27,003 nucleotides of DNA from a virus. The position numbers and the translations under genes are program-made. Each line of letters begins with the position of its first letter. Position 1 is the stretch's first letter. The stretch is from positions 1 through 27,003 of the IMG/VR virus record IMGVR_UViG_3300008267_000861; one strand, given 5' to 3'. Shown here piece after piece: positions 7,985-22,256 of the stretch. The notes beneath the pieces were generated by a model, which searched no databases, was not told the DNA's origin, and saw only the letters and a program-made list of their open reading frames with translations.

Positions 7985-7987
7985 AAC

Positions 7988-8572
7988 TTATTTGATTTCA
8001 TAATCAGTATATTTTTCTTTAGTTGGAGTAACATTCGGAAAATAAAACTTAATTGTTTTACCTGATTTTTCTAAGTAAATAATTTTAAAGAAACCATCTG
8101 GTACAGTTGCACCTGTAGGTAGTTTATAACTTGTTTTACTAAACACTACATCTATAATAATAGTAGTTGGTTCTTTTTTAGCATACTCTCGTTCTTGTAA
8201 TTCAAGCATTCTCCATACACCACGATTTAAGTATTGGTTTTGTAAAGCGCAGTTTAAATAACTAAAGGTTTTATATAACATTACTTTATCACAGTTAAAA
8301 TCTGCTGCTGGAGCCATATGACCTTTGTCCCACTCATTTTTAACATAATCTTCATTACTTGATGTTTTAACTGAGTCATTAGTATAAAAGTCCATACCTG
8401 CTCTAGATGCGGTTCCATTAGGGCATAACACAGTGTATTTAACCCATCTTGGACTTTCTAGTTTTTCACTATAAATTACTTCAAAAATATCTGTTTTGAT
8501 TCTTACTGAATCTCTTAATTGTGCAGTTGCTAAAAATGGAATTAGCAGTAATGCGAATAATAGTTTTTTCAT
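7988..8572 (-). CDS. Secreted DNA/RNA non-specific endonuclease (NucA-like)
   Basis: A 194 aa beta-beta-alpha-metal nuclease of the NucA/Serratia endonuclease family. A signal peptide (MKKLLFALLLIPFLATAQ) targets it to the periplasm or exterior. The catalytic motif DKGHMAPAAD spans 82-91, with H85 as general base. The magnesium-binding asparagine is N116 in LNRGVWRMLE. It is smaller than the Serratia enzyme but complete at both motifs. It could degrade competing or extracellular DNA, or host DNA after lysis. Export keeps it away from phage DNA in the cytoplasm. It overlaps the upstream lipoprotein gene by 4 nt, so they are probably co-expressed. Confidence 0.88.
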   Translation of the reverse strand: MKKLLFALLLIPFLATAQLRDSVRIKTDIFEVIYSEKLESPRWVKYTVLCPNGTASRAGMDFYTNDSVKTSSNEDYVKNEWDKGHMAPAADFNCDKVMLYKTFSYLNCALQNQYLNRGVWRMLELQEREYAKKEPTTIIIDVVFSKTSYKLPTGATVPDGFFKIIYLEKSGKTIKFYFPNVTPTKEKYTDYEIK

Positions 8573-9446: not shown

Positions 9447-10281
9447 TTTGTATATTTTGTCTAAATTGTTCTTGTTCTTTTTCTAATAGTAAAGTGAATG
9501 GGTCAATTGTTTTATCAAATACTTTTTCAAAGAAATTTTCAGCATTCACTTCTCTTGTTTGAACTAAATGTCTAATATATTGTATTTTAAATTTATCACC
9601 CTCAATATTAGCATTATGTTCATGAACACGAGCTTGCATTTTACCTATTGCTCTAATTTGGTTATAGTATGATTTAGCATTATCCATAAATGCTTTCATT
9701 TTTTCCCAATATTTAAATGTTGTACTTGATCTAACATCTAAAGCGTATCTCATTCTATAACTTAGAGTGATACTTGGATGAACTAATCTAACTGGAAATT
9801 CATCATAATAAACTGTGATAATATCTTTTTTACGAATTATTTCATCGTTAAAGATATCCATTTTAAACTCTACATGTCTGTCTATATCTGGATTGTCTGT
9901 TGATTCACTCCATGATTTATAAAATTGCCATAAATGAGCTTTAGGATCAAATTTTTTATTTAGATAATCTTTTTCAGTATGTTCATACATTTCAGATTGA
10001 TGACTAACTAACCCAAAGAAATTTTTAAGTGATGACCATTCTTCTTCAGTGAATGTATCTAACAATCCAAAATCAAAATCACCTATTTTATCCATAGGTT
10101 CAAAACCTAATAATTTAAGAGATAAACTTCCTGTTAGGACAAATTTATCATTCATAGCCATCATTGGAAGAATATATTTTTCAAATATAATCTTTTTATC
10201 ATCTAATGGATCAAGAATATTATTCTTGAATTTTAAACTCATTAGTCCTGTTTCTGAACTGATATTGTAATGTATATTCAT
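9436..10281 (-). CDS. Nucleotidyltransferase-fold protein
   Basis: This 281 aa protein has the Pol-beta-superfamily nucleotidyltransferase signature: LTGSLSLKLLG with G51-S52, then D68-F-D70 in IGDFDFGL. This gives the two metal-binding aspartates. The rest is helical, with a DIFNDE strand that might supply the third carboxylate. Related folds include CCA-adding enzymes, minimal nucleotidyltransferases of toxin-antitoxin systems and protein nucleotidylyltransferases. None of the window's tRNAs encodes CCA, so a tRNA-tail role is conceivable but unsupported. No signal peptide. It sits upstream of thyX with an 11 nt overlap. Confidence 0.7.
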   Translation of the reverse strand: MNIHYNISSETGLMSLKFKNNILDPLDDKKIIFEKYILPMMAMNDKFVLTGSLSLKLLGFEPMDKIGDFDFGLLDTFTEEEWSSLKNFFGLVSHQSEMYEHTEKDYLNKKFDPKAHLWQFYKSWSESTDNPDIDRHVEFKMDIFNDEIIRKKDIITVYYDEFPVRLVHPSITLSYRMRYALDVRSSTTFKYWEKMKAFMDNAKSYYNQIRAIGKMQARVHEHNANIEGDKFKIQYIRHLVQTREVNAENFFEKVFDKTIDPFTLLLEKEQEQFRQNIQNAK

Positions 10282-10301
10282 AACCTTTTATTTTAATTGT
10301 T

Positions 10302-10757
10302 TTATAATCTACCCGCGCCTCTATAACTGTGAGTGTATTTAGGGTCACTTAGAATTGATATTTTTACTCCTTCATACTTGTTTGAAGCATGAATAAATTT
10401 ATCATCTCCAATATATATTCCACAATGCCATCCACTTGGGCTTGATTTACTTCTAAAAAATACTATATCACCTATTATTAATTCTCCTTTTAATATACGT
10501 TTTGTAGCATTCCATTGTTTATATGCTACATCTGGTAATATTAAATTAAAAACATCTTTATATAAACGTTTTGTAAATTGGGAACAATCTATTCCTTTTT
10601 CTGTTTTGCCCCCTAATTTATAAGGTCTACCTAACCACTCATTAATAAATTTATTTAATACAGATGTTGTATCTTGTTGTGCATATGTGTTTAAAGAGGT
10701 TAATAATAAAAATATTAATAATAATTTACTCAGTTTCTTCTGAAATGATAGTTCCAT
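10302..10757 (-). CDS. Secreted NlpC/P60 cell-wall peptidase
   Basis: A 151 aa NlpC/P60 cysteine peptidase, expected to cleave peptidoglycan stem peptides between D-Glu and the diamino acid. I chose the ATG at 10757 (MELSF) because it is followed at once by a signal peptide ending NTYAQ. A longer reading from 10799 adds 14 non-hydrophobic residues and overlaps the upstream gene more. Catalytic C58 lies in GIDCSQFTKRLY, H111 in HCGIYIG and the third polar residue H123 in FIHAS. Export to the periplasm fits a lysis or entry role. It overlaps the upstream gene by 32 nt. Confidence 0.88.
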   Translation of the reverse strand: MELSFQKKLSKLLLIFLLLTSLNTYAQQDTTSVLNKFINEWLGRPYKLGGKTEKGIDCSQFTKRLYKDVFNLILPDVAYKQWNATKRILKGELIIGDIVFFRSKSSPSGWHCGIYIGDDKFIHASNKYEGVKISILSDPKYTHSYRGAGRL

Positions 10758-11208
10758 ATTGTTTTGCTGCTGTTGGGTTACGCTCCATAAATATTTCATA
10801 AGCGACCTGGTATCTACCTAATTCAATATGTACTGGAAATAATTCAGCAGATAATGAATCTGTTAATTTTTGAAGTGAATCAATAGTTTGAGCTTTAGCT
10901 ATATCTCCACCTTGAATAAACTCAACTTTTTCTTTTCTAAGTTTAGTTAATTCTTTTTGTTGTCGTTTTGATATATTAATAATTGTTTGTTCTTCTTCAT
11001 TAGATAATCTATTCCAATTACCTTTTAGTTTATCAAGTGCCTCATTAAAAAAACTCTCACCTACACTCACTAGTGGATTTTCTTTTTTTTCTATTTGTTT
11101 AGGAATATATCCTTCTTCATAAAGATCATCTACTAATTCTTGTTTTTCATGAGAACTTAAATTCCATAATACATCGTCTATATCGACGTCAACACTTACA
11201 TATGCCAT
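10726..11208 (-). CDS. Hypothetical acidic helical protein
   Basis: An unrecognised 160 aa protein. The N-terminal segment VSVDVDIDDVLWNLSSHEKQ followed by ELVDDLYEEGYIP (about 4-36) resembles a short motif I recall in several phage and bacterial hypothetical proteins. The remainder is a long helix rich in E, K and Q, probably a coiled coil (70-125), and a C-terminal helix. No signal or membrane segment. It starts 3 nt after the 73 aa gene and overlaps the NlpC/P60 gene, so it probably belongs to the transcript started by the promoter at 11440-11464. Confidence 0.6.
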   Translation of the reverse strand: MAYVSVDVDIDDVLWNLSSHEKQELVDDLYEEGYIPKQIEKKENPLVSVGESFFNEALDKLKGNWNRLSNEEEQTIINISKRQQKELTKLRKEKVEFIQGGDIAKAQTIDSLQKLTDSLSAELFPVHIELGRYQVAYEIFMERNPTAAKQYGTIISEETE

Positions 11209-11211
11209 ATT

Positions 11212-11433
11212 TTATTTATTATAATTAAAAAATTTATTTGCTGCTTGTTGTTCACCTTTAGTTCTAGGTTTTGAAACTGGTCGTTCAACTATTTTAGGTT
11301 TTCTACCTCTTCGTTTTCTAGGAGTATCTTCATCATCATCCCATCTTGTGTTTCTTATTTTTTTATAAAGATCCTCTAATACCTGTTTTCTATACTCAGG
11401 ATCATCTTTTGGGTATACTGGTTTCAATTCCAT
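11212..11433 (-). CDS. Small basic protein with AT-hook-like motif
   Basis: A 73 aa hydrophilic protein with a central basic tract PRKRRGRKPK (about 38-48). It contains the RGRKP core of an AT-hook, which binds the minor groove of AT-rich DNA; this would suit this genome. Flanking segments are probably disordered. Its ATG (11431-11433) lies 6 nt downstream of the TATATT box of a phage-type promoter, predicting a leaderless mRNA. DNA binding is inferred from the motif only. Confidence 0.6.
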   Translation of the reverse strand: MELKPVYPKDDPEYRKQVLEDLYKKIRNTRWDDDEDTPRKRRGRKPKIVERPVSKPRTKGEQQAANKFFNYNK

Positions 11434-11439
11434 AACATT

Positions 11440-11464
11440 AATATAGAATAAAAATTAAGGTCAA
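11440..11464 (-). promoter_or_regulatory. Phage-type promoter (TTGACCT-N12-TATATT)
   Basis: Read on the minus strand, TTGACCT (11458-11464) and TATATT (11440-11445) are separated by 12 nt, and the ATG of the 73 aa gene begins 6 nt further on. The upstream box overlaps the TGA stop of the preceding gene. This is one of six copies of the motif in the window. Confidence 0.7.
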
Positions 11465-11655
11465 ATTTTATCTTCAGTGTGGATTTTGTCATCATCCCAA
11501 TCTAACCATCCTTCAGACATATTAACGTCTGGATTTTCTTCTTTGTATTTTGCAGCCGCGTCAATTCCTCTCACCCAAGCATATGAGAGTATAGCTACAA
11601 ACACAAACATAACAATAAAAAATGTAATCATAACTTTAAGTTTTAGTCCCACCAA
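11461..11655 (-). CDS. Small single-pass membrane protein
   Basis: A 64 aa protein with one strong membrane segment (about 7-28, VMITFFIVMFVFVAILSYAW) and an acidic, tryptophan-containing tail (VNMSEGWLDWDDDKIH). The topology suggests a bitopic inner-membrane protein; the function is unknown. It overlaps the upstream 183 aa gene by 13 nt. Its TGA stop forms part of the TTGACCT box of the next promoter. Confidence 0.55.
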   Translation of the reverse strand: MVGLKLKVMITFFIVMFVFVAILSYAWVRGIDAAAKYKEENPDVNMSEGWLDWDDDKIHTEDKI

Positions 11656-12194
11656 TAAGTGGATTTACGTTTTAATATTTCAAATAATAGATTTCTGCAT
11701 TTTTCTTGACGATACATACTTACATACATTGCTAGTCTATGATGGTCTGTGAAGTCAGTACCTTTATGTTTTTTCATTACTTTACGAACATCGTTTGGAT
11801 ACTTATGGATATAATCAATTAAATGTTCTGATTTATAATCATCAAATATTCCTTCCCCATACTCAATATATTTCATATACTCCATCTCATAATATTGATC
11901 ATGTGTGAGTTCAATTAAATTAAGTGTAACTGTCATCCAATAATTATCACGTTCAATATTAGTATGACGATTTGCTTTAACTAAATGCTCTCGTTGATGT
12001 TCAATTTTCTTTTGAAGCATTTTAGTGATAAAATAATCATCCCAATCTTTATCTTTATAAATAGTAGGTATCCATCTAAAGATGTTATGAACACCTTCAA
12101 TAAAAACATTAAACCAAATAGGTGTGTAGCGGCGCCATGTTTTTCTGTTCCATGCGCTATCAGATGGGATTGGAAGTTTTTCGTAACGTTTCAT
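11643..12194 (-). CDS. Conserved-looking phage protein of unknown function
   Basis: A 183 aa protein rich in tryptophan, tyrosine and histidine. Features are a WIPTIYKDKDWDDYFITKML segment (about 42-61), an HREHLVKANRHTNIERD helix and a DQYYEMEYMKYIEYGEG segment. The arrangement of a WxDxDWD core followed by RHTxxERD resembles hypothetical proteins I recall from T4-like marine phages, but no function is known. No signal peptide. The ATG lies 6 nt downstream of a phage-type promoter, so the mRNA is probably leaderless. Confidence 0.65.
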   Translation of the reverse strand: MKRYEKLPIPSDSAWNRKTWRRYTPIWFNVFIEGVHNIFRWIPTIYKDKDWDDYFITKMLQKKIEHQREHLVKANRHTNIERDNYWMTVTLNLIELTHDQYYEMEYMKYIEYGEGIFDDYKSEHLIDYIHKYPNDVRKVMKKHKGTDFTDHHRLAMYVSMYRQEKCRNLLFEILKRKSTYWWD

Positions 12195-12200
12195 ATTGTA

Positions 12201-12226
12201 AATATATGAAACAAAATCTAGGTCAC
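12201..12226 (-). promoter_or_regulatory. Phage-type promoter (GTGACCT-N13-TATATT)
   Basis: On the minus strand GTGACCT (12220-12226) is followed after 13 nt by TATATT (12201-12206), and the ATG of the 183 aa gene (12192-12194) follows after 6 nt. The upstream box has one mismatch to TTGACCT and a spacer one base longer than most copies. Confidence 0.6.
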
Positions 12227-13660
12227 CTAATTAGAAGAATGAGATAAATTAACATCTCCTAATATACAATACTTAATATTTTGAGTGACATCTGATGTAG
12301 TTACATTTATTGTAAAGAATGTTACTGGATTAGTTGTGTTAAAATTAGATTTAGTTATTAAATCGTAATTAGATGGATTAAACCATAATACTTTATTTAT
12401 TAATCTTAGTCCTGTTAAATGAGCAGCTACTAAAAAAGCATCACCTAAATCTAATATTCCATTTTCATTTACATCTGCTGCTTTCCATTGTTTAGTTCCT
12501 GTCATTACCAAACCAGGTAATGTACCTGGAGGGACATTTATATTTTGAGCTTCAAGCCATACCAAATTAAAATCAACTGATGTTATACCTTGTACTGTTA
12601 ATGATGGTACTAATTTATAAGTTGAGTTTTGTTGAGGTAAAGTAAAAGTATAAGTACCATTTGTAGCTACTGTTTTATAGTCTACAAGCTGATCTACTCC
12701 ATTTACTACTCTATAAAGTGTAAGTAATGGTCTTGATGTTAAACCAGCTGGTATTGTAACTGTACCTGTTAATGTATTTGTAATTGCAACTGTATTAGTA
12801 GTATTAGCTGTATAAAAACCTGTAAATGTAGCATCCGCTGGGTTAGACCAATTACCAAATTCAACTATATAAGCACAGTTATAGTTATTAGGTAAGTCAT
12901 TCCAACATCCTCCTCCACCCCATTTAGTAACAGCATAGTGTTCACCTCCAGCATTATTAGGTTCTCCACCACACCAGTTATTATATTGACCAGCTATATT
13001 ACCTGCTGTTTGTCCATTTGCTGTTTTAATTAAAGTACCATTTTCAGGACCAGCATCTATTCTCCAATATCCTTCTTGAGCTACATCTGATAAAGCAAAC
13101 CAAATATTATTTTGAGGTACATTTGCTACTATAAAATTTTGTTCATCTTGTGAAGTAATAGTTACAAGGTAGCCATTTACTCCTTTAAATACTTCAGAAG
13201 CGGCTGATGACTTAGCCGCTGAATAAAACATTGCTGTTGATACTGGTCTATAAAAATGTCCATTAACAGCATTATAATAATATCCAGCTGGGTTAACAGT
13301 TGTTGAGATTGATATTTGAACATTACCTGTAATAGCACTTGTATTTACTTTTAATGATGCTAAAGCATTATTTACATTTGCTTGAGTACCTGTGAAACTA
13401 AGACGAGTTTGGTTTGTCCAAGAATTATATCCTGTAGCAAATGATAATCCTGTAGTTGTAGTAACACTAAATGTCACACCTGCTGGTGGATTAACAAAAC
13501 CAATTGATGTTAGTAATGTTTCTGATCCAAATCCACTAATTACAAATCCACTAGCATCCTGTCCACTAACATTTACTTGATAAGTTCTACCTGGTGGAGC
13601 AGTAATTGACTGTCCAAATGTTATAAAAGGAAATAATAATATGATAAGTAATAATCTCAT
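12227..13660 (-). CDS. Secreted C-type lectin-like protein with dockerin-like end
   Basis: A 477 aa exported protein with signal peptide MRLLLIILLFPFITFGQ. Residues about 40-115 read as a beta-sandwich repeat. About 125-270 is a C-type lectin-like domain, with GYLVTITSQDEQNFI, an EPN calcium/sugar motif in WCGGEPNN, and a WND motif in GGCWNDLPNN. The C-terminal part has an EF-hand-like loop, DVNENGILDLGDAFL, like a dockerin repeat. This last module is related to one in the type IX cargo at 17338-19227, matching through GDVNLSHSS versus GDVDRTHSS. This protein stops there, lacking any sorting domain. It may bind glycans at the host surface. It overlaps the upstream gene by 4 nt. Confidence 0.8.
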   Translation of the reverse strand: MRLLLIILLFPFITFGQSITAPPGRTYQVNVSGQDASGFVISGFGSETLLTSIGFVNPPAGVTFSVTTTTGLSFATGYNSWTNQTRLSFTGTQANVNNALASLKVNTSAITGNVQISISTTVNPAGYYYNAVNGHFYRPVSTAMFYSAAKSSAASEVFKGVNGYLVTITSQDEQNFIVANVPQNNIWFALSDVAQEGYWRIDAGPENGTLIKTANGQTAGNIAGQYNNWCGGEPNNAGGEHYAVTKWGGGGCWNDLPNNYNCAYIVEFGNWSNPADATFTGFYTANTTNTVAITNTLTGTVTIPAGLTSRPLLTLYRVVNGVDQLVDYKTVATNGTYTFTLPQQNSTYKLVPSLTVQGITSVDFNLVWLEAQNINVPPGTLPGLVMTGTKQWKAADVNENGILDLGDAFLVAAHLTGLRLINKVLWFNPSNYDLITKSNFNTTNPVTFFTINVTTSDVTQNIKYCILGDVNLSHSSN

Positions 13661-15096
13661 AGATTAATCTTGCTACCAATTAAGAAAAATGATAATATAG
13701 GAAATTCTGGATTAGTAGACAAATTAGCTTTATAATTCATATTAAATTTAAAACGTTTAGTTATCTGATAATCAAATCCACTTCCTAAAAATCCACTAAA
13801 ATATCTATCTGTTGTTGTTACTTTATCTTTAGATGAATAAATTAATGGGGTTGATATAACATATATCTCTGGTGATATAATTAATCGTTTTCCTGTTTTA
13901 AATGGTCTAGTATAAAAAGCTGTTATTGAAGGAGAGAAATAAGTATTATCTTCTTCAGATACAATTGTACCAGCAGCACTAATATTAAATCCTGTTACAC
14001 CCCATTTACCAGCGTTTAATATACCACTATACCCTACAAACGCTAGTATATTACCATAAGAGTAAACACCAGTTAAATTAAAGTTATGAATAAATTTTAA
14101 ACTACCTGTTTTATTAAAATGTATTTGTGTATAACGTCCTGATAAAGCAAATTGTTTAAAGTTTAACCAAGTCATACTTGTTAAGCCCCAACTAGACATT
14201 CCTGTCATTGATGATTGAGACATACCTAAGTTAAGTATTGGAGTAAAAGTTTTATCTAAGTTTTGAGCTGTAGTTAAGTCAGATGAAACAATAACAGGAT
14301 TATTTCTAGCATTATTACTTTTATTTCCTCCTTTACCTCCACCACCACCACTTCCTCCACTTTCACTTCCTTTATCTTGTCTAGCATCAACATTCATTGT
14401 TGTTGTTGCTCCTACTTCTTCACCTTTATCTTCTCCTTTAGTTTTATTATCACCTGATTGGTTGTTTTGAGAAGTAGTTGGACTTGAGCTAGGGTTACTG
14501 CTGTTGCTAGTACCAGTGTTATTATTATTCCCTGTCCCATTGTTAGTAGTGGTTGACGAACTATTGTTACCACCTGTTTGAGTACCTTGAGTAGTCCCTG
14601 AATTACTTGTATTAGACCCAGTAGAGCCACTATTAGAAACGGAATTGCTATTATTATTATTACTATTTTCATTTTTTTGTTTTTTATTATCACTTTGTGT
14701 ATTGCCTTTAGAAGCAGCATCAGTCCCACCTATTGAGGCGGAGGTAGCTGAAGACATAATACTGCTAACAACACTTTGAACTGTGCTACCTATAATTTGA
14801 GAGGTAATTAAATTTTGATTTACTTGTCCTGATTGAACACCACAAGGAGATATTTTACGATAATCACTATAAACTTGATTAACCCATGAAGCTAAAGTTC
14901 CATTAGAAACATCACCTGGTGTGAAAGATCTAGATTGGTTTAAAAAGAAAATTACAGTTCCTTGAGCTGGGACTGCAAATAATGTAGTTTCTTTAGTACA
15001 TGGGTCTATAAAAGTATAAATAAGATTTTGTCCATTAGCTTTCCAACTAGAAAGTAAAATACAAAATACAATTAAAGTTTTTCTTAAACCCCACAT
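13657..15096 (-). CDS. Exported protein: cysteine-containing head, low-complexity linker, beta-barrel-like end
   Basis: A 479 aa protein with a signal peptide ending KANGQ. An N-terminal domain (about 24-95) has two cysteines, in DPCT and SPCG, that could form a disulfide. A long Ser/Asn/Thr/Gly-rich linker follows (about 120-255). Residues 270-479 show alternating beta strands and end in a phenylalanine-containing strand, like an outer-membrane beta-barrel. This last part is clearly related to the neighbour at 15121-15897: both have a YxIxKRF segment, then STNPEF or NTNPKF, and end IGSKINL or IGNKFNL. It may place a phage-encoded domain at the host outer membrane. No known family recognised. 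Confidence 0.65.
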   Translation of the reverse strand: MWGLRKTLIVFCILLSSWKANGQNLIYTFIDPCTKETTLFAVPAQGTVIFFLNQSRSFTPGDVSNGTLASWVNQVYSDYRKISPCGVQSGQVNQNLITSQIIGSTVQSVVSSIMSSATSASIGGTDAASKGNTQSDNKKQKNENSNNNNSNSVSNSGSTGSNTSNSGTTQGTQTGGNNSSSTTTNNGTGNNNNTGTSNSSNPSSSPTTSQNNQSGDNKTKGEDKGEEVGATTTMNVDARQDKGSESGGSGGGGGKGGNKSNNARNNPVIVSSDLTTAQNLDKTFTPILNLGMSQSSMTGMSSWGLTSMTWLNFKQFALSGRYTQIHFNKTGSLKFIHNFNLTGVYSYGNILAFVGYSGILNAGKWGVTGFNISAAGTIVSEEDNTYFSPSITAFYTRPFKTGKRLIISPEIYVISTPLIYSSKDKVTTTDRYFSGFLGSGFDYQITKRFKFNMNYKANLSTNPEFPILSFFLIGSKINL

Positions 15097-15120
15097 CTAT
15101 TTTTTAAACTATTGTTTATA

Positions 15121-15897
15121 TTATAAATTAAATTTATTACCTATAGAAAAATTATTCATTAATCCAAATTTTGGATTAGTATTAATATTACCTCTATAAG
15201 CGACTAATAATATAAATCGTTTACTTATTTTATACCCTACTGATGTTCCTATTAGAGCATTAAATGTTGGATCTGTTGTTTTTGTATCTAATCCTAAATC
15301 CCAGTACATATGAGAATAACTTAATAATAAATCTGGTGTTATACTAAATTTACCTACTTTATATATTTTATTAGCGAACAATATTACTGATGGGGCTCCT
15401 GTATGCATTGGAGGTAATGTATCAGTTAGTTTACTAAATGTAGATGATAAATTAATTCCAAATCCTTTATTCCATTTACCTTTATATACTTTAGCATAAG
15501 TTAAAGTTGTTGTTCTATTTGTACTTATCTCAGTAAATGAAAGAAATAAATTATTATTATTTTTACTTATAAACCCAGATATACCTTTTTGAGAACCATC
15601 TGTTGTTATGAATCCATTACCACCATAAGAGTAAACACCACTTAATGATTGTCTACCACCACCAATAGAAATAGCTTGTAACCATCCGCCTACATAAGTT
15701 GGTTTTTGTAATAATACTAAATCTGATGATGTTAAAAAAGCGTTTGTTTTAACTATTGAACCTTTTTGTCCTGGTGGGGGTGGTGGAGGAGGAGGTTGTA
15801 AATTATTTACTTGCATTTGCATTTCTCTGTTTTTAGAATCTTGAGAGAATGCTAATGTTGGAAGTAATAATAACAATATATATAATAGTTTTTTCAT
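15121..15897 (-). CDS. Exported beta-barrel-like protein
   Basis: A 258 aa protein with signal peptide MKKLLYILLLLLPTLAFSQ, a short spacer containing eight consecutive prolines (about 35-42), and a beta-strand-rich body. The body shows glycine/aromatic alternation (GVYSYGGNGF, KFSITPDLLLSYSHMYW) and a final strand ending KFNL, typical of outer-membrane barrels. It is a paralogue of the C-terminal domain encoded just downstream at 13657-15096. Surface display, superinfection exclusion or lysis support are all possible. The two genes are 24 nt apart. Confidence 0.65.
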   Translation of the reverse strand: MKKLLYILLLLLPTLAFSQDSKNREMQMQVNNLQPPPPPPPPGQKGSIVKTNAFLTSSDLVLLQKPTYVGGWLQAISIGGGRQSLSGVYSYGGNGFITTDGSQKGISGFISKNNNNLFLSFTEISTNRTTTLTYAKVYKGKWNKGFGINLSSTFSKLTDTLPPMHTGAPSVILFANKIYKVGKFSITPDLLLSYSHMYWDLGLDTKTTDPTFNALIGTSVGYKISKRFILLVAYRGNINTNPKFGLMNNFSIGNKFNL

Positions 15898-15904
15898 TTA
15901 TTAT

Positions 15905-16651
15905 TTATCTTTTAAATATACCTTTCTTATACATTCTAACTAAAATTTTACTAGCAGCTATTTCAAGTGCTTTTTTAGTTGATGTACCAATAGTAGATTG
16001 ATTAAATTTAACTTCACTAAAGTTATCATCATTCATTAATGTTAACTCTCTAACTGTTTTAGCTTCACCTAAACCTGAGCCAGTGAAGTATTCACCTGTT
16101 TCAGCATTAACAAATTTAACTTGTAAACCTAAACGAGTCACAACAGTATTTTTAACTCCGTCTTTCATATTCACTGTTTCATCTTCTGAAACTGAGAAGT
16201 CATATACTTCTATATAAGCAAAGTAATGGGCTAATCTAATTTTACCTCTACCATCTAATTTATCTTCAGTAATTCCAGCTTGGGATGCTTGGAATTGTTT
16301 AACCATTCTATTCTTAATTTCTGTTTTATCTTCAGTAAATAAGAAATGGTTTGTTTCTTCTAAAAATTCAACTACTATATTTGTAACACCTAAACCTACT
16401 CTTTTATCCTTTAATTCAGGATACATAGTATAAACCTCTTCATTAATACCTAAACTAAGTATCTGAATTGGAATTTTAGGACCATCATAATCTAATAAAC
16501 TATCAATATTAATTTTTTTCTCAAATGATGCTTTATAATCTTCTGTTTTAGTAGTACCTATAGTTTGAGCAGGTAAGTTAATAGCTATTAAAAACATAAG
16601 GACAAACCATATAATAGTGGCTATTAGATATTTATATTCTCCTTTTTTCAT
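15905..16651 (-). CDS. CsgG-family protein
   Basis: A 248 aa protein resembling the CsgG (curli export channel) family. It has GLGVTNIVVEFLEETNHFLF (a helix plus strand) and DKTEIKNRM. Later come LAHYFAYIEVYDFSV, then LGLQVKFVNAETGEYFTGSG (VDAETGE-type strand), and an ALEIAASKILVRMYKKG C-terminal helix. An N-terminal hydrophobic segment (about 9-28) ends LPAQ and lacks a lipobox cysteine, unlike canonical CsgG lipoproteins. True CsgG forms a nonameric outer-membrane pore; whether this one does is unknown. It lies 7 nt upstream of the beta-barrel gene, suggesting a shared export or envelope function. Confidence 0.65.
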   Translation of the reverse strand: MKKGEYKYLIATIIWFVLMFLIAINLPAQTIGTTKTEDYKASFEKKINIDSLLDYDGPKIPIQILSLGINEEVYTMYPELKDKRVGLGVTNIVVEFLEETNHFLFTEDKTEIKNRMVKQFQASQAGITEDKLDGRGKIRLAHYFAYIEVYDFSVSEDETVNMKDGVKNTVVTRLGLQVKFVNAETGEYFTGSGLGEAKTVRELTLMNDDNFSEVKFNQSTIGTSTKKALEIAASKILVRMYKKGIFKR

Positions 16652-16668
16652 AAAATTTTTTTAGAAAG

Positions 16669-16692
16669 GTGCCTAGGTTTTATCCTAGGCAC
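16669..16692 (-). terminator. Strong hairpin, possible terminator
   Basis: GTGCCTAGG and CCTAGGCAC form a perfect 9 bp stem around a 6 nt loop, 11 nt after the stop of the 87 aa membrane-protein gene and before the CsgG-like gene. The following U-tract on the minus strand is weak, so it may be a stabilising or partial terminator. Confidence 0.6.
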
Positions 16693-16702
16693 TTTTAATT
16701 AA

Positions 16703-16966
16703 TTACTCTTCAGTTGGGGTATCCTCTGTTGTTTTACCTTTTTTAGCATTGATAAATTTGTCAATAGATCCAATACCAAATGAACCTAATACAATCACCA
16801 TGAAACCATCAAAGATGAATTCATTGATAACAAATTCTTTGCCTAACCATCCAGTAACAATGTCAACGCCTAAAGCGACTACCATCATTAAGAAAGCAAT
16901 AAAACCTACAACTGATTTTTCGTTGATTGTGTTGTTGTCGTCAAATAAATTTTTAAACCAATTCAT
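16703..16966 (-). CDS. Two-pass membrane protein, holin candidate
   Basis: An 87 aa protein with two predicted membrane segments (about 19-38, VVGFIAFLMMVVALGVDIVT, and 50-68, IFDGFMVIVLGSFGIGSIDK) and a charged C-terminal tail (KKGKTTEDTPTEE). Size and topology fit a class II holin, which would trigger lysis by permeabilising the inner membrane. The separately encoded NlpC/P60 and 3D-domain proteins could be partners. There is no sequence proof of holin identity. The hairpin at 16669-16692 ends its transcript or shields its 3' end. The upstream AT-rich leader is nearly identical to that of the next gene upstream. Confidence 0.5.
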   Translation of the reverse strand: MNWFKNLFDDNNTINEKSVVGFIAFLMMVVALGVDIVTGWLGKEFVINEFIFDGFMVIVLGSFGIGSIDKFINAKKGKTTEDTPTEE

Positions 16967-16988
16967 TTTTTTAAATTTTAATTGTTAA

Positions 16989-17318
16989 TTACCATTTTGG
17001 TTCTTCCGAAAACTCCTTCTTAGGCTTAGCTGGTTCAGCTGGTTTAGCTGATTTTTCAACTACGCGTTCGATTACTTTTGTTCCACCAGCAGCTTGTTGT
17101 TGTTGCTGAGTATTATTAATAACAATAGTAGGTTGAGTAACTGGAGCTACTTGTTCAGTTTTTGGTTCATCTTTATCTTCTTTATGACCACCAAAAAATG
17201 TTGTTGTAACCCAAGTACCAGCTCCTAATACTGCTGTACTTAATGTACCAATAATTGTTTTTTTAAGACCTGACCAAGTTCCATCATTGTGGTCTTGAAC
17301 GTTTGTTTCTTCTGACAT
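16989..17318 (-). CDS. Small membrane-associated protein with Pro/Lys tail
   Basis: A 109 aa protein with a single, weakly hydrophobic segment (about 19-42, LKKTIIGTLSTAVLGAGTWV then TTTFFG). A long polar tail has a polyglutamine run and alternating Pro, Ala and Lys (KPAEPAKPKK). The arrangement could be a bitopic envelope protein acting with the holin-like protein downstream. No family recognised. The sequence before its ATG, CAATTAAAATTTAAAATC, matches the leader of the neighbouring 87 aa gene almost exactly. Confidence 0.5.
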   Translation of the reverse strand: MSEETNVQDHNDGTWSGLKKTIIGTLSTAVLGAGTWVTTTFFGGHKEDKDEPKTEQVAPVTQPTIVINNTQQQQQAAGGTKVIERVVEKSAKPAEPAKPKKEFSEEPKW

Positions 17319-17337
17319 GATTTTAAATTTTAATTGT

Positions 17338-19227
17338 TTAACTGATTATAAATTGTTTTGCTAATCTTTTATTATATCCTTCCAAAACTAAAAGATACAT
17401 TCCTTTATCAACATTTAAGTCAACTTTAGTTTTAACTATACCATTGTATTCATTTTTAATTTCACCTATTGTTTTAACTAATCTACCATTGAAATCATAT
17501 ACTTTAGCAACTATAGAATTCATATTAGAATTAGGGAATGTTATTGATACTTCAAAAGCACCTGAGTTTGGGTTTGGATAAATTATAGCTGATAATTCAT
17601 TAGTTGAATTAGAAGCATATGAAGGAGCCATTCTGCTTGTTAATAAAATTCTATCTGAAGCTAAAGCTATATTAAAATGATCTCCATTTTTATCAGACGC
17701 ATCCATTAATTTTCTAATATAAACAGCTGTTGTGACATCATTATTTCCTATAGGTGAAAATTTAAGTTTAAATGGAGTTGAAGTACCATTTAAAAAACCT
17801 CTATCTTGATTATTCATTCCTCCAAATCTAACAATACCATTAACTTCATCATGAGTCATATATTGTAACCAAGGTCCTTGAATATTAGAAACAATTTCTT
17901 CAAATTTAACTTTAGTTGGATCATATTTCATTTCAAATTGTAATCCAGCATTATCAGTATTATTTGTGTTTATATTAAATGGAACATATAATGGTTGTCC
18001 TAAACCAGCATAAGTATCAGGAACCTGAACTCCTAGATTACCATTAAATCTAGCAGCAGCTACTAAAACACCTTGAGCATTATAAACTGGAGATGAATGG
18101 GTTCTATCAACATCACCTAAAACAAAATATTTAATATCTAATGTTAAGTTAGTCACACCAACACTATCATAAATAAAGTTTTCTCTATTAATATAAGTAG
18201 CCCAATCATTCCATTGGTTAGCTCCTAATACTAATGAATCATATTCTTGTTTACTAAATGCACTAATTAATTTAGTTGTGTCAATTGGTTTTAAACCTGA
18301 TACTGAAGCATATATTGAATATGGGTCACCACCATCTAATGTACCTGTTTTATTAATATCACCAATTAGATAAGCTAAACCATTTTGTAAATACTGATGT
18401 CCAAATGTTTGGTTAACATCAGTGTAAGTATATTCATTATAAGATTTAGTAGCATCAGCTATTGTGACACCATTATCTCTTATACTAATTAAACTATCTT
18501 GAGGAAATTGTAAACGTAATTTATATTTTGTATTTTCATCAATATTGATTAAAGTATAAGTACCATTAGCAGCTACAGTTGTTGATGAAATAAAAGCACC
18601 ATTATTAGCTTGAGTACAAATAATTTGAGGTAATGAAGCCATATTTGGTCCTAACCATACTTTACCTGATATAGTTAAGTTACCTAATAATTTAATTGCT
18701 AATTTTTGATTTGTTAATTGAGCAACATTATCACCAATTGTAGTACCATCAACTTTAAACATACGAGCCCAGTTAACAGTGATTGTATCTGACACGTAGT
18801 TTGGTTGTACATTATTAATTTTATACTTATTATGAATTATATATCCATTAGTACTAATAGTTGAACCACTTGATAATACTAAGTAGTTACGACCTACTGT
18901 CCAACTAGTATCAGCTGAGTAAGTATAAGTACCATTTGAATAATTACTATATTTGTAATTATCCCATGTTTTATAACTAACTGTAGGAGTCATATTATTA
19001 ACAGACGCATCTACAGTAGTTGAAATATGAGTTAATAATGTTTTTTTATACTGCCAATCAACTTGGAAAGTACGAACATCTGGAGCACCTGGTCTATAAT
19101 ACCAAGTAACATCTAAAGTGTCTCCTCTTCTTACAGTAGCAAGAGTCTGAAAGTGACCAATTTGAGGAGTTTGAGAATAAGAGGCGAAACTGATTAAAAG
19201 CGAGATTGCTAATAATAGTTTTTTCAT
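17338..19227 (-). CDS. Type IX secretion cargo with cohesin-like and dockerin-like modules
   Basis: A 629 aa exported protein. After signal peptide MKKLLLAISLLISFASYSQ comes a beta-rich region (20-280). Next is a dockerin-like calcium loop, GDINKTGTLDGGD (about 290), with a second GDVDRTHSS. A cohesin-like beta-sandwich follows (about 390-530), with LYVPFNI, AGLQFEMKYDPTKVKFEEI and an FKLKF strand. The last 85 residues are a type A Por sorting domain: IIYPNPNSGAFEVSI, then VYDFNGRLVKTI, and GMYLLVLEG near the C-terminus. This domain directs Bacteroidota proteins through the type IX system to the cell surface. It is strong evidence for the host phylum and unexpected in a phage. It overlaps the upstream gene by 4 nt. 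Confidence 0.85.
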   Translation of the reverse strand: MKKLLLAISLLISFASYSQTPQIGHFQTLATVRRGDTLDVTWYYRPGAPDVRTFQVDWQYKKTLLTHISTTVDASVNNMTPTVSYKTWDNYKYSNYSNGTYTYSADTSWTVGRNYLVLSSGSTISTNGYIIHNKYKINNVQPNYVSDTITVNWARMFKVDGTTIGDNVAQLTNQKLAIKLLGNLTISGKVWLGPNMASLPQIICTQANNGAFISSTTVAANGTYTLINIDENTKYKLRLQFPQDSLISIRDNGVTIADATKSYNEYTYTDVNQTFGHQYLQNGLAYLIGDINKTGTLDGGDPYSIYASVSGLKPIDTTKLISAFSKQEYDSLVLGANQWNDWATYINRENFIYDSVGVTNLTLDIKYFVLGDVDRTHSSPVYNAQGVLVAAARFNGNLGVQVPDTYAGLGQPLYVPFNINTNNTDNAGLQFEMKYDPTKVKFEEIVSNIQGPWLQYMTHDEVNGIVRFGGMNNQDRGFLNGTSTPFKLKFSPIGNNDVTTAVYIRKLMDASDKNGDHFNIALASDRILLTSRMAPSYASNSTNELSAIIYPNPNSGAFEVSITFPNSNMNSIVAKVYDFNGRLVKTIGEIKNEYNGIVKTKVDLNVDKGMYLLVLEGYNKRLAKQFIIS

Positions 19228-19700
19228 AGTAGTTTTTCGATTAAGGTTATAATGGTTTTTTTAAGAGCAGAACGAGCTGACGCTTGATTAAAACCACCAC
19301 CTTCATCGACTATCATAGTTGAAGTGGATATTTCAGAACTTGTACCTGTAGCTATATATTCTTTAGGTTTTTTATTATTGTCGTAAAGAATACCTTTAAC
19401 TCTAATGATTGTCTCATTATTCGTTTTATGAAATACACTTACACCAGTTGTTGTTTGTTGAATATCAAAGTATATTATTTCTATATCTAATTTAAAAGCA
19501 GTACTATCATTATTTAAGTCATGCCCTTTATCTAATATAGCTTCTTCAGCGATGTTTTTAACTCCAAAAACTAAATTCTTATTTCCTGTTAATGGACCAA
19601 TTTTAATTTTATTAGTCACATTACCAACATAAACACTAGCTGGTTGAGCAAATGCTATGCTATATAAGGATATAAGTATAGTTGTTAAAAACAATTTCAT
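19224..19700 (-). CDS. Exported CsgG/FlgO-like small protein
   Basis: A 158 aa protein with signal peptide MKLFLTTILISLYSIAFAQ. The mature part has the alternating strand/helix pattern of small CsgG- or FlgO/YajG-like envelope proteins: FGVKNIAEEAILDKG, then LDIEIIYFDI, TIIRVKGILYDN, GTSSEIS, and a final ARSALKKTIITLIEKL helix. No lipobox cysteine. It is the first gene of the exported-protein cassette, just after the tmRNA terminator, and overlaps the type IX cargo gene by 4 nt. It may assist export or assembly of that cargo; this is inference from context. Confidence 0.55.
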   Translation of the reverse strand: MKLFLTTILISLYSIAFAQPASVYVGNVTNKIKIGPLTGNKNLVFGVKNIAEEAILDKGHDLNNDSTAFKLDIEIIYFDIQQTTTGVSVFHKTNNETIIRVKGILYDNNKKPKEYIATGTSSEISTSTMIVDEGGGFNQASARSALKKTIITLIEKLL

Positions 19701-19731
19701 TACCTTTAATTTTTATCGGTGATAAATATAG

Positions 19732-19756
19732 AAAAAAAGCAGTCACTTGACTGCTT
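19732..19756 (-). terminator. Rho-independent terminator after tmRNA
   Basis: On the minus strand, AAGCAGTCA-AG-TGACTGCTT forms a perfect 9 bp stem (19737-19756) followed directly by a run of T. It closes the tmRNA transcript before the exported-protein cassette begins. Confidence 0.88.
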
Positions 19757-19825
19757 AAAAACTAAATTCTTCTTTTAGTAACCTGATCGCGGGAAGGAAA
19801 GAAGTGGTTTTTTGAATGTTACTTG

Positions 19826-20196
19826 TGGAGGTGGAGGGATTCGAACCCTCGTCTTCATAAGGAACAATAACACTAACGTTTCACATGCTTAGATCTGATA
19901 AATCTGATCAGTAATTAGGGGCCGTTTAGTTTATGGACGGCCGACTCCACCACTTAATTTTTAAAGAATTAAGAAACTTTATTTTGTAACTTTATGTTCC
20001 TTGGTTGTTACCACCAGATTTTGATTAGGCAGCTACTGCGTAATCAGCACCGATGAACGCCATTACGTCGTCAAAGGTCATTGTAGATAATTCTACGTTT
20101 GCGTTTATTTGTTGAAAATTTGTTTAAAGGCGACATATCCAAACGCCTGCATGTAGTGGTACCTTCACATTATGAATCAAATACCTGGTCACCCCC
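19826..20196 (-). ncRNA. ssrA: Transfer-messenger RNA (tmRNA)
   Basis: A 371 nt tmRNA that would rescue stalled ribosomes. Its 5' end GGGGGTG pairs with 3' CACCTCC across the whole gene (7 bp, one G-U), giving the tRNA-like acceptor. The T arm GAGGG-TTCGAAT-CCCTC is perfect, and AAGCATGTGAAACG upstream of it matches the conserved 3' domain of bacterial tmRNAs. A pseudoknot-like stem AGGCG/CGCCT precedes AATAAAC-GCA-AAC, which closely mirrors the E. coli resume site. From resume codon GCA (20100-20102), the open frame runs 25 codons to TAA (20025-20027), beginning ANVE and ending GADYAVAA. That end is a typical ClpXP-type degron. The CCA is not encoded. Confidence 0.93.
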
Positions 20197-20205
20197 ATAG
20201 AGTGA

Positions 20206-20223
20206 AAGCCGCTTACGCGGCTT
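20206..20223 (-). terminator. Hairpin between lipoprotein gene and tmRNA
   Basis: AAGCCGC-GTAA-GCGGCTT (minus strand) forms a 7 bp stem with a GNRA loop, 4 nt after the small lipoprotein stop and 9 nt before the tmRNA 5' end. Only a short T run follows, so it may be a processing or partial termination signal. Confidence 0.6.
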
Positions 20224-20227
20224 AAAA

Positions 20228-20407
20228 TTACTTCACTTCTAAGTTTGGTGTGTTGCTAGTTGAATCAACTTTAACTGAATCTACTTTAACTGAAGTTGAA
20301 TCTACAGTCACAGCAGTTGAATCAGTAGTTGTAGCTGTACCTTCACTTGAACCGTTACAAGCAGCAAACATAATAGTGGCTGCGAACAAAAACATTACTT
20401 TTTTCAT
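20228..20407 (-). CDS. Small serine/threonine-rich lipoprotein
   Basis: A 59 aa gene reading MKKVMFLFAATIMFAAC at its start: a lipoprotein signal with a good lipobox and modified cysteine at residue 17. The mature 43 residues are Ser/Thr/Val/Asp-rich with imperfect VDST repeats (TTDSTAVTVDSTSVKVDS), probably unstructured. Such short acidic lipoproteins are common in flavobacteria. It lies between tRNA-Leu and tmRNA inside the RNA island, an odd place for a protein gene, and is probably transcribed with them. A hairpin follows its stop. Function unknown. Confidence 0.7.
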   Translation of the reverse strand: MKKVMFLFAATIMFAACNGSSEGTATTTDSTAVTVDSTSVKVDSVKVDSTSNTPNLEVK

Positions 20408-20440
20408 CTTACTTTTTTTTGATTAAAATTTAAATTTCAG

Positions 20441-20526
20441 TACCTCGGGCCAGAGTCGAACTGGCACGGGCTTTACAGCCCACAAGATTTTAAGTCTTGC
20501 ATGTCTACCGATTCCATCACCGAGGC
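20441..20526 (-). tRNA. tRNA-Leu (UAA)
   Basis: An 86 nt class II tRNA. The acceptor pairs GCCTCGG with CCGAGGT (one G-U), the anticodon loop CTTAAAA carries UAA, a long variable arm is present, and the T loop is TTCGACT. It reads UUA, a frequent codon in AT-rich genes. CCA is not encoded. Confidence 0.93.
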
Positions 20527-20609
20527 ATGTGTTTGGTAGGTTTAAAATAAAACAACCTGAGACTACAGTTGGCGCACTAGATCTTTTGAGGTATTATTTT
20601 ATTCTCCTC

Positions 20610-21457
20610 TTGTCCAGAGTCTTTTGAACCCTATTCTAGCAATGCTGGTTATTTAAGTGAACCACTCTTTGAGCTACTTTTTATTTTGGACTACTCTCTT
20701 CCTACTCACATCTATTCAAACCTGCCGGCCTGATTCACTCTTGCGGAGTTATAGAGTTTTCTGAAAAATCACTTTCGGCTTGCGACCTCAAGCGGCACTG
20801 GACAACCCAATACTATGTAAGCACCTTTCGTCCGTAGCTGGTGAACACTTTTGCTTAGTTGATATATGATTTTGCAATCTATAATGCAAATAAGTTGTGA
20901 CTGTGGATCATTAAGGTAGCGGTTCACCTTGAGCCGCGTCACCTTTTGAGCGAAACGATACTCAACTACCTTATAAGACATCCCTGCCTTCATATTTTAA
21001 GATATCTTCAGAATCAAAGTCTTGGTAGACTAAAATTAAGATTAGTAACAGCACCACCTGTACACTAATATACCTTCCCTATTTCTAGGCTACGGTTTTA
21101 AGACACCTCTTATATTGAGCAACGCAATCATATATCTGGATAGATATATTTTTTGCAAATACTCTATAGGTTATTCTTATTGCTCTTCCGAGCTCAACCT
21201 GACAACCCACATTGCCAAGTCATTAAACCCTTTCGCTACGGAGTTACCCTCACTACTTCAGGTCCAATGATACCCTACTTGCGTACTCAAGCTCATTTCT
21301 GAGCCGCAAACTGGTTTAGTCAAACCAATTCACTTTATACTGCTTTCACAGTTTATTTAATGACCATACGCGGCCAAATGTTATTTATAATACAGCCGAA
21401 ACTGTATTAATGGACAACAATTATTTCAAAGAACTTTTTTTTTATCTTATTATTGTA
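20610..21457 (-). ncRNA. Giant structured RNA, GOLLD/ROOL-like candidate
   Basis: About 810-850 nt without a credible gene but packed with helices when read on the minus strand. The ends pair: TTGTCCA (21411-21417) with TGGACAA (20610-20616). A second long-range 9 bp helix joins 21356-21364 to 21219-21227 and encloses several hairpins. GAAA tetraloops cap GCTCA/TGAGC (21291-21304) and CCTA/TAGG (21078-21089), and GGAA caps GCTC/GAGC. Other perfect hairpins lie at 21388-21409 and 21130-21149. GNRA loops fold only on this strand. Size, position among phage tRNAs and two tandem promoters immediately upstream match the GOLLD and ROOL giant RNA classes; the exact class needs a covariance-model search. 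Boundaries are approximate: the 5' end is set by the predicted start near 21457. Confidence 0.75.
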
Positions 21458-21463
21458 TAATAA

Positions 21464-21487
21464 ATATACAACAAATCTTTAGGTCAA
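21464..21487 (-). promoter_or_regulatory. Phage-type promoter for the giant RNA (proximal)
   Basis: Minus-strand TTGACCT (21481-21487) and TATATT (21464-21469) are 11 nt apart. A start about 7 nt downstream falls near 21457, some 40 nt before the closing helix of the giant RNA. Confidence 0.7.
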
Positions 21488-21541
21488 ACAAATTTTTTAT
21501 TTTCTTTCTTCACTTTTCTTTTTTCACTTTCTTATATATTA

Positions 21542-21566
21542 AATATATAATAAAACTTTAGGTCAA
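21542..21566 (-). promoter_or_regulatory. Phage-type promoter for the giant RNA (distal)
   Basis: Minus-strand TTGACCT (21560-21566) and TATATT (21542-21547) are 12 nt apart, giving a predicted start near 21535. It lies in tandem with the copy at 21464-21487; the AT-rich sequence between them holds no gene. Confidence 0.68.
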
Positions 21567-21586
21567 AAAACTATTTTACTAAATTG

Positions 21587-21693
21587 TGCGAGGTCCAGGA
21601 CTTGCACCTGTAAGCTATTACTAGCAAAATGATTGGACTCATTTCGTGTCTTCTATCGGCAGTCGTACGCCCGCTCGCTTCCACCACCCTCGC
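21587..21693 (-). tRNA. Abnormal class II tRNA-Leu-like gene
   Basis: A 107 nt tRNA-like sequence. The acceptor GCGAGGG/ACCTCGC pairs except at the seventh position. TGGTGGAA and a short variable arm (TGCTAGTAATAGCTTA) follow the bacterial tRNA-Leu pattern. Three departures are visible. The D-loop region has about 22 extra bases. The anticodon stem AAATG/CATTT closes an 8 nt loop, AGTCCAAT, instead of 7. The T loop reads TGCAAGT rather than TTCAAGT, with an A-G mismatch in its stem. The anticodon could be read as CCA or CAA, or as a quadruplet. It may be decayed, a frameshifting tRNA, or repurposed. CCA is not encoded. Confidence 0.6.
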
Positions 21694-21698
21694 ATTTG

Positions 21699-21770
21699 TA
21701 GTCCCGACAAGAATCGAACTTGTATCCGCTGCTTAGAAGGCAGCTGTTCTATCCGTTGAACTACAGGACC
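21699..21770 (-). tRNA. tRNA-Arg (UCU)
   Basis: A normal 72 nt cloverleaf: acceptor GGTCCTG/CGGGACT, anticodon stem GCTGC/GCAGC with loop CTTCTAA, T loop TTCGATT. It reads AGA, the usual arginine codon in AT-rich phage genes. Confidence 0.93.
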
Positions 21771-21791
21771 TTGTTTTCCGAAGCTCCTTAG

Positions 21792-21865
21792 TGGACCCTG
21801 CTGGGCTCGAACCAGCGACCCGCAGATTATGAGTCTGCTGCTCTAACCAACTGAGCTAAAGGTCC
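21792..21865 (-). tRNA. tRNA-Met (CAU)
   Basis: A 74 nt cloverleaf with acceptor GGACCTT/AGGGTCC, anticodon stem GCAGA/TCTGC, loop CTCATAA. The fully paired acceptor end argues for an elongator tRNA rather than initiator; a lysidine-modified Ile (CAU) tRNA cannot be excluded by sequence. Confidence 0.9.
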
Positions 21866-21869
21866 TAAG

Positions 21870-21956
21870 CGGAGGCTCAGGGATTCGAACCCCGGTTACA
21901 ATTTCTCGTAAATCGGTTTTCAAGACCGACGCATTCAACCACTCTGCCAAACCTCC
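21870..21956 (-). tRNA. tRNA-Ser (UGA)
   Basis: An 87 nt class II tRNA: acceptor GGAGGTT/AGCCTCC with discriminator G, anticodon loop CTTGAAA (UGA), extended variable arm, and T loop TTCGAAT. It reads UCA. Confidence 0.93.
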
Positions 21957-21957
21957 G

Positions 21958-22028
21958 TTACCACTCCTGGATTCGAACCAGAACTAACAGAACCAAAATC
22001 TGTTGTGCTACCGTTACACCAAGTGGCA
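21958..22028 (-). tRNA. tRNA-Gln (UUG)
   Basis: A 71 nt cloverleaf: acceptor TGCCACT/AGTGGTA, anticodon stem ACAGA/TCTGT, loop TTTTGGT (UUG). Only one base separates it from tRNA-Ser, so the primary transcript must be processed precisely. Confidence 0.92.
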
Positions 22029-22034
22029 CTTTAG

Positions 22035-22134
22035 CTGACCCTGCTGGAATCGAACCAGCGGCACGACTTATTTCCTCATGGTTGGTAAGCCTTGAGTACT
22101 ATAAGCTTGCTCTAACCTACTGAGCTAAGGGTCA
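22035..22134 (-). tRNA. Abnormal tRNA-like gene with expanded anticodon arm
   Basis: A 100 nt sequence with perfect tRNA ends: acceptor TGACCCT/AGGGTCA, a standard D arm (TAGCTCAGTAGGTTAGAGCA) and T arm GCTGG-TTCGATT-CCAGC. Where the anticodon arm should be there are about 30 extra bases. The best fold pairs GCTTAT with ATAAGT (one G-U). It then has an internal loop AGTA opposite GAA, resembling a bacterial loop-E/sarcin-ricin motif, then CTCA/TGAG capped by a 14 nt loop containing GGCTTACCAACC. No ordinary 7 nt anticodon loop is visible, so its amino acid and decoding role are unclear. Confidence 0.65.
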
Positions 22135-22142
22135 GATATTAG

Positions 22143-22214
22143 TACTCGGTACGGGAGTCGAACCCGTATTTCATCCGTGAAAGGGACGCGTCCTAACCAT
22201 TAGACGAACTGAGC
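22143..22214 (-). tRNA. tRNA-Glu (UUC)
   Basis: A 72 nt cloverleaf: anticodon stem CGTCC/GGATG with loop CTTTCAC (UUC), T arm ACGGG-TTCGACT-CCCGT. The acceptor GCTCAGT/ACCGAGT has one A-C mismatch at the fifth pair. It is the first gene after the tRNA-cluster promoter and reads GAA. Confidence 0.9.
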
Positions 22215-22223
22215 GACTGACAA

Positions 22224-22248: not shown

Positions 22249-22256
22249 AAAATTAT

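Follow-up and report, generated by a model that had tools for sequence, protein, structure and literature searches.

The cassette and its distribution

The window analysed here, a virus record of 27,003 bases from IMG/VR (IMGVR_UViG_3300008267_000861), carries a cassette of eight minus-strand open reading frames (ORFs), ordered H, G, F, E, D, C, B and A on that strand, which spans positions 12227-19700 with intergenic gaps of -4 to +51 bases. The sequence-only reading, an earlier description made from the letters of the window, had placed eight consecutive genes in this span, coding for six proteins with N-terminal export signals and two small membrane proteins, and all eight ORFs are indeed present at those positions on the minus strand. 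Our analyses of these genes and of their relatives support the view that they form a conserved phage cassette of exported, envelope-directed proteins, found in hundreds of viral contigs.

A search of IMG/VR with D (15905..16651, minus strand), the most conserved core member, returned relatives in at least 512 viral contigs, and two further scans started from distant D proteins led to a set of 158 loci with distinct D proteins. Of these, 95 are complete in the sense that at least 6 kb is available on both sides of D; the loci are related, and the counts given here are hence not independent events. In the complete loci, D is accompanied by B in 95 cases, G and H in 93 each, F in 86, a GH19 endolysin in 68, the lectin A in 63, E in 54 and c7 in 53. 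Correspondingly, A to H were recovered in 45-82 of 82 fetched loci (the count for A includes matches to a segment common to A and G), compared with 0-13 of 82 for genes of the window outside the cassette. Synteny kept over 158 loci with distinct D proteins indicates an arrangement beyond chance. Gene order varies, with H located first, as in the window, or last, and second barrel proteins similar to C recur.

The carriers range from fragments to contigs of 434 kb, and the module is found on contigs of about 67 to more than 400 kb. Among 18 tested records, a terminase was detected in 13 and a sheath match at E 0.001 in eight, five of them over the cut-off, so that the module appears to be carried both by phages in which a sheath is detected and by phages in which none is. 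A host-derived origin or a prophage island was rejected on the distribution of D in bacteria: no host chromosome was found to carry it, and only two of 84,980 species genomes contain it, in both cases on viral-looking contigs of metagenome-assembled genomes (MAGs), namely a 12.6 kb contig with an endolysin beside the cassette (L084) and a contig that carries a terminase (L085), and among 397 genomes of the bacterial family concerned, D was matched in the L084 MAG alone. The cassette is thus neither confined to one contig nor placed next to host genes. An isolated carrier is available as well, Flavobacterium phage immuto of host Flavobacterium sp. LMO8, in which the set comprises a nuclease (gp012), the lectin (gp013), gp014, the cohesin protein (gp015), gp016, D (gp017), gp018 and gp019, part of them annotated as hypothetical.

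Export signals and conservation

According to the Bacteroidetes Q-rule, glutamine occupies the new N-terminus after signal peptide cleavage (PMC5837995), and we called signal peptides heuristically, as a signal peptide with glutamine directly following the cleavage site. This pattern is found in 154/158 D, 152/152 B (counted together with C), 154/165 G, 81/85 A and 81/135 H proteins, against a background of 157 of 2161 other ORFs (7%) and none of 96 GH19 endolysins. Judged from these motifs in the window and across relatives, six cassette proteins are strongly predicted to leave the cytoplasm via the Sec pathway of the host, in agreement with the number of export signals originally proposed.

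Such signal peptides argue for an envelope location, contrary to virion parts, and are compatible with Bacteroidota hosts. The sequence-only reading had offered two possibilities, a system directed to the host surface or surface-exposed parts of the virion; the former is retained, while the latter, with the lectin and cohesin proteins carried on the particle for adsorption, is the least likely of the explanations considered here and in our view very improbable. The C-type lectin fold is known from receptor-binding proteins of phages, and in one lineage tail-fibre genes are located close by, both in line with a place on the virion. Against it, the Q-rule signal peptides and the sorting domain for the type IX secretion system (T9SS, see below) direct the main members away from the cytoplasm, the site at which tailed virions are assembled. 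In addition, no convincing match of A to H to PHROG or Pfam virion families was obtained, the best being that of A to a baseplate wedge family (E 0.71), and the PHROGs assigned no function to cassette members.

Conservation is unevenly distributed among the proteins, with median identities of 64% for D, 50% for F, 34% for A, 30% for H, 25% for G and 23% for B, as compared to 68% for the endolysin. Such a gradient fits a conserved inner machine whose outer parts are specific to the host. We note that D stands far above the other core members and close to the endolysin.

The CsgG-like protein D and its possible relative H

D gave no Pfam match, and comparison of PDB chains with the profiles of D, G and H yielded nothing usable; with profiles being uninformative, the folds had to be modelled. 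The fold assignments presented here derive from two AlphaFold models, of D and B, calculated from input alignments without the immuto sequences. In the model of D (pLDDT 67.6), the fold is that of the curli pore CsgG, an assignment strongly supported by structural comparison: the first 19 Foldseek matches in the PDB are all CsgG (best E 1.6e-7), and a second aligner superposes the model on CsgG with VIA Z 9-10 over 156-177 residues. Behind CsgG follows the wider LptE/PelC/FlgT fold group; one smaller protein, Cj1090c, reaches Z 11, over 133 residues. In sequence, the CsgG profile (PF03783) found no match in the window and 17 further records, and matched in four control genomes.

H (19224..19700, minus strand; 158 aa) is an exported core member, connected to D through a weak profile link (hhalign 52%), which hints at a small CsgG/LptE-like fold. 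The original proposal of two CsgG/FlgO-like proteins therefore holds for D by fold, not by sequence profile, and only weakly for H. Directly after H, 49 of the 158 loci encode an exported protein of about 150 aa with an HExxH motif (97/97 homologous ORFs) and a weak likeness to SprT (e.g. L152:13718-14170 and L188:14475-14927); this putative secreted metallopeptidase may belong to a wider module.

The outer-membrane barrels B and C

B (13657..15096, minus strand), present in every complete locus, is a core member predicted to consist of an exported N-terminal domain, a helix, a disordered linker and an outer-membrane barrel. The barrel is strongly supported by the AlphaFold model, in which residues 268-478 form 12 confident strands, and by its structural neighbours, the best of which are autotransporter translocators (NalP, VIA Z 23.2), with the amyloid exporter FapF lower (Z 18.4). 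The sequence profile of B retrieved only low-complexity or unrelated PDB chains. As in the autotransporters NalP and EspP and in FapF, a 12-stranded barrel is combined with a helix, which in the model, at modest confidence, aligns with the pore helix of NalP/FapF-type proteins. Unlike in these proteins, helix and barrel of B are separated by a disordered linker of about 140 residues, identity amounts to 6-8%, and no passenger of known type is found.

C (15121..15897, minus strand) is a short paralogue of B devoid of the N-terminal domain of the latter. Over 121 aa it shares 31% identity with the C-terminal part of B (E 5e-14), and it is accordingly assigned a barrel too. The two related barrel-like proteins of the sequence-only reading are thereby recovered. 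The linker of B is of low complexity and its kind differs between lineages, being rich in Asn, Ser and Gly in the window and elsewhere consisting of an Ala/Ser stretch of period 4 followed by a Lys/Glu/Ser-rich part; both flanking domains are kept.

A protein with the fold of CsgG next to a barrel invites comparison with curli. Phage-encoded curli or type VIII secretion genes (CsgG/F pores) have been described for pelagimyophages, HTVC023P-type pelagiphages and methylophage Melnitz, with suggested roles in sibling capture, superinfection defence and lysis control (PMC7029224, PMC9599517, PMC9004378). Similar to these, the module has a phage-borne protein with the CsgG fold in a small conserved gene cluster that is absent from the host, and both Melnitz and the window combine a transfer-messenger RNA (tmRNA) with a CsgG or CsgG-fold gene. 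The module differs in its lack of CsgF, curlin repeats, a match to the CsgG profile and a lipobox on D, in the company of D, i.e. outer-membrane barrels, a T9SS-labelled cohesin protein and a lectin, and in having Bacteroidota as hosts. D may work like the curli system without being a member of it as judged by profile, lipobox and partner genes.

Along these lines, D and B could export a fibre subunit, by curli-like or other fibre secretion, and cause infected cells to aggregate, as the sibling capture proposed for phage curli entails. The CsgG fold of D and the resemblance of the B barrel to FapF, among others, speak for such secretion. Nevertheless, we consider it improbable: in 18 records, some of them fragments, csgF (PF10614) and the curlin repeat (PF07012) were matched in none, with E. 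coli matching as control, which makes curli-like secretion less likely; the CsgG profile is likewise unmatched there, the module has no repetitive fibre subunit, and the autotransporter barrel is a closer structural neighbour of B than FapF.

The lectin A and the cohesin protein G

A (12227..13660, minus strand) is strongly supported as a C-type lectin whose mannose-type sugar site is intact, as the sequence-only reading had suggested in calling it a lectin. Lectin_C (PF00059) scores 25.7 bits (cut-off 22.6), and profile matches to solved C-type lectins extend down to E 7.9e-13. The EPN and WND motifs, which mark the mannose-type Ca-dependent site, occur together in 78 of 85 A proteins and in one of 813 background ORFs, and are invariant in 20 aligned A sequences. 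The C-terminus of A is dockerin-like and corresponds to a segment shared with G (BLASTP E 1e-12; 18088..18369 in G), with a 12-residue Ca-loop found in 79/85 A proteins compared to 37/813 in the background. The lectin was also considered as target of a diversity-generating retroelement, a possibility rejected owing to the even conservation of A.

G (17338..19227, minus strand; 629 aa) has a Sec signal peptide (N-terminus MKKLLLAISLLISFASYSQ), and the evidence strongly supports its identification as a cohesin protein labelled for the T9SS of the host. The T9SS type A sorting domain (17344..17583) is recognised by PF18962 (35.3 bits, cut-off 27) and TIGR04183 (37.1 bits, cut-off 23), and in 13 of 18 large phage records such a domain (Por_Secre_tail) exceeds the cut-off exactly once, always on G, as anticipated by the earlier label of type IX cargo. 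The cohesin domain (17638..18030) lies below the Pfam cut-off in the window copy (E 0.024) and well above it in relatives, with E 5.9e-9 in immuto and 5.7e-11 in the best case, so that the proposed cohesin-like module is borne out by the family.

The sorting domain appears to be replaceable. Across the loci, it is either located on G (85 loci) or apparently substituted by a separate lipoprotein, c10 (34 loci), the two never being present together; neither was detected in a further 28 loci, in some of which, for instance immuto, the domain is too distant for the model used. The c10 family (L055:8762-9124, L013:2895-3272 and relatives) consists of small lipoproteins with a single sorting-domain-like domain, encoded beside cohesin proteins without one. 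Its profile aligns with that of the sorting domain (hhalign 89%, E 2.5e-6), Por_Secre_tail is its commonest Pfam match (11 of 23 members, below cut-off), and the weak sorting-domain match in one record (G006) falls inside c10. We know of no stand-alone lipidated sorting-domain-like protein described previously. The lectin A is never found together with c10 in the locus set.

Two further arrangements were encountered. In the L019 lineage, G and a long A are both of the cohesin type and have no sorting domain; two small lipoproteins are encoded after them, and the weak sorting-domain match of this record falls within one of the two lipoproteins. In 18 loci of the immuto type, G is split into a dockerin-like end and a half with cohesin and sorting domain, each equipped with a signal peptide. 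Taken together, the exchange of sorting domain and c10, the L019 arrangement and the split G suggest that the pieces may join by non-covalent docking.

The small proteins E and F and the lysis neighbourhood

E (16703..16966, minus strand; 87 aa) and F (16989..17318, minus strand) are the two small membrane proteins of the sequence-only reading, an assignment upheld by their families: two transmembrane (TM) segments are predicted in 35 of 45 E members and one in 32 of 53 F members, with none at threshold in the remaining 21, the window copy included. F is a core member with a hydrophobic N-terminus and a Pro/Gln-rich tail with a conserved end. In 42 of 83 cases, the gene immediately downstream of E is the endolysin or the single-TM gene c9, which, along with its two TM segments, makes E a holin candidate; a relative gave a weak match to a PHROG holin (E 0.025), other profile matches of E being weak or absent. 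E need not be the sole holin, as a Phage_holin_4_1 gene directly follows the endolysin in one locus (L087). The c9 gene (L066:4744-5376), situated between E and endolysin in one large group, encodes about 210 aa with one N-terminal TM segment and a beta-rich-looking C-terminal part, for which a spanin-like role is possible. A class 3 lipase gene adjoins the cassette in one lineage (L042:12985-13764; eight of the first 83 loci), and its product could act on membranes during exit.

An association with lysis genes, missed by the sequence-only reading, is hence apparent, and the main rival to a display function is a lysis or egress module, in which D, B/C, H, F and E would help to open the outer membrane as holin and endolysin act, in phages where no spanin was recognised, G and A being accessory. 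The GH19 endolysin of the 68 complete loci mentioned above is at most 9 kb from D, upstream in some lineages and downstream in others, and further lineages have amidase or NlpC/P60 hydrolases near the module. The position of E, the holin gene beside the endolysin in L087, and the conservation of D, about equal to that of the endolysin, also fit such a role, as does the part in lysis proposed for CsgG/F of Melnitz. On the other hand, lysis has no need of a lectin, a cohesin scaffold or a T9SS signal, complete holin-endolysin sets lie apart from D, B and G in the same loci, and among A to H no spanin-like pair was recognised. On balance, we regard a function primarily in lysis as somewhat unlikely.

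Proposed mechanism of surface display

Based on the predicted folds, the export and sorting signals and the conserved synteny, we propose that the cassette is a conserved envelope module, acting late, by which Bacteroidota phages place an adhesin of their own making on the surface of the infected cell; we put the probability of this at close to even. In this mechanism, D, together with H, would form an outer-membrane-associated ring with the B/C barrels. The T9SS of the host would carry G to the surface and anchor it there, and A, which has no sorting domain, would be held by its dockerin-like end, docked to the cohesin on G. Where G is without sorting domain, the adjacent lipoprotein c10 would take that part. 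E would serve as holin. The displayed lectin would then coat or cross-link surface glycans late in infection, with the effect that superinfection and re-adsorption of progeny to debris are blocked, or that sibling cells are held together. More tentatively, and at somewhat lower probability, the module may be self-contained and move horizontally. A cohesin scaffold bearing the lectin would be built through the type IX pathway of the host, beside the phage CsgG-fold ring and barrels, and the module would thereby determine whether competing phages, released progeny or sibling cells can bind the cell in the final phase of Bacteroidota infection.

Several observations weigh against this proposal. 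At the positions of the membrane hairpins of CsgG, alignments show inserts in D of similar length that are polar, so that D can be regarded only as a possible pore, and the lipobox of CsgG is replaced by a heuristically assigned signal peptidase I site followed by Gln in the 154 D proteins counted above. The dockerin likeness of A is at the level of one motif, the Ca-loop, and the Pfam dockerin cut-off is not reached (best Dockerin_1 E 0.039-0.068), leaving the dockerin-like module of the sequence-only reading supported by the motif and not by the profile. The lectin is missing from part of the loci and can therefore not be the whole point of the module, and the adjacency to lysis genes fits a role in lysis at least as well.

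Relation to known surface systems

Display via the host T9SS has a parallel in Cryophage, which encodes T9SS cargo in the form of variable enzymes and a PA14 protein (PMC7468147). In both cases phage genes carry a T9SS type A sorting domain and presumably make use of the secretion system of the host. Unlike the variable cargo of Cryophage, G is a single cohesin protein, kept in place within a fixed module.

The arrangement of A and G also recalls cohesin-dockerin assemblies of the cellulosome type, with a cohesin on a surface-directed protein, a dockerin-like Ca-loop terminating a carbohydrate-binding partner, and split G genes. It deviates from them in that one full cohesin is recognised per scaffold, the dockerin is half-degenerate, the partner is a C-type lectin instead of an enzyme, and the components are phage-encoded.

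The sequence-only reading had known of no described phage system with this content. This is too broad, as CsgG/F pores and T9SS cargo of phages are published; a description of the combination, of how widely it is spread and of its link with lysis genes was not found in the searchable open literature, which includes few subscription journals and preprints.

Phages of Bacteroidota are abundant but little understood, and how they cross or exploit an outer membrane decorated by the T9SS is, to our knowledge, not established. At least several hundred viral contigs carry the module, and with immuto as isolated carrier its role is directly testable. If the display of an adhesin is correct, these phages actively give the infected cell a sugar-binding coat by way of the secretion system of the host; if the module instead serves lysis, it provides the outer-membrane step that has been missing for such phages. 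In both cases, the result would bear on the unexplained curli genes of marine phages.

Neighbouring genes and transcription

Downstream of the cassette, the window contains several small genes, a peptidoglycan hydrolase, a thymidylate synthase-like gene and an endonuclease. The hydrolase (10302..10799, minus strand) belongs to the NlpC/P60 family (PF00877, E 7.9e-25), has a signal peptide and is likely the endolysin beside the module in the window. The secreted DNA/RNA non-specific endonuclease (7988..8572, minus strand; PF01223, E 2.8e-26) is loosely associated with the module, homologues being present in 30 of 158 loci and, in phage immuto, adjoining the lectin gene.

A terminator-like hairpin between tmRNA and cassette (19737..19756, minus strand; an 8-pair stem followed by a T-run) is located just upstream of H. 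By consensus match only, it is the sole predicted minus-strand terminator within 7500-22300, from which it may be that H to A, perhaps extending to the hydrolase and the nuclease, form a single transcript. Sigma-70 promoter matches were not above chance.

Upstream of the cassette, tmRNA and GOLLD RNA (261 bits) are found at 19823-20196 and 20554-20973, about 360 bases apart, with six tRNA genes. Phage-encoded GroEL and GroES are adjacent at 22779-24702, also upstream, along with an Hsp20-like gene at 24965-25594. At the opposite edge of the window (16-2736), two tandem genes resemble glycosyltransferases, as judged by eye from their translation, and are possibly involved in glycan or DNA modification.

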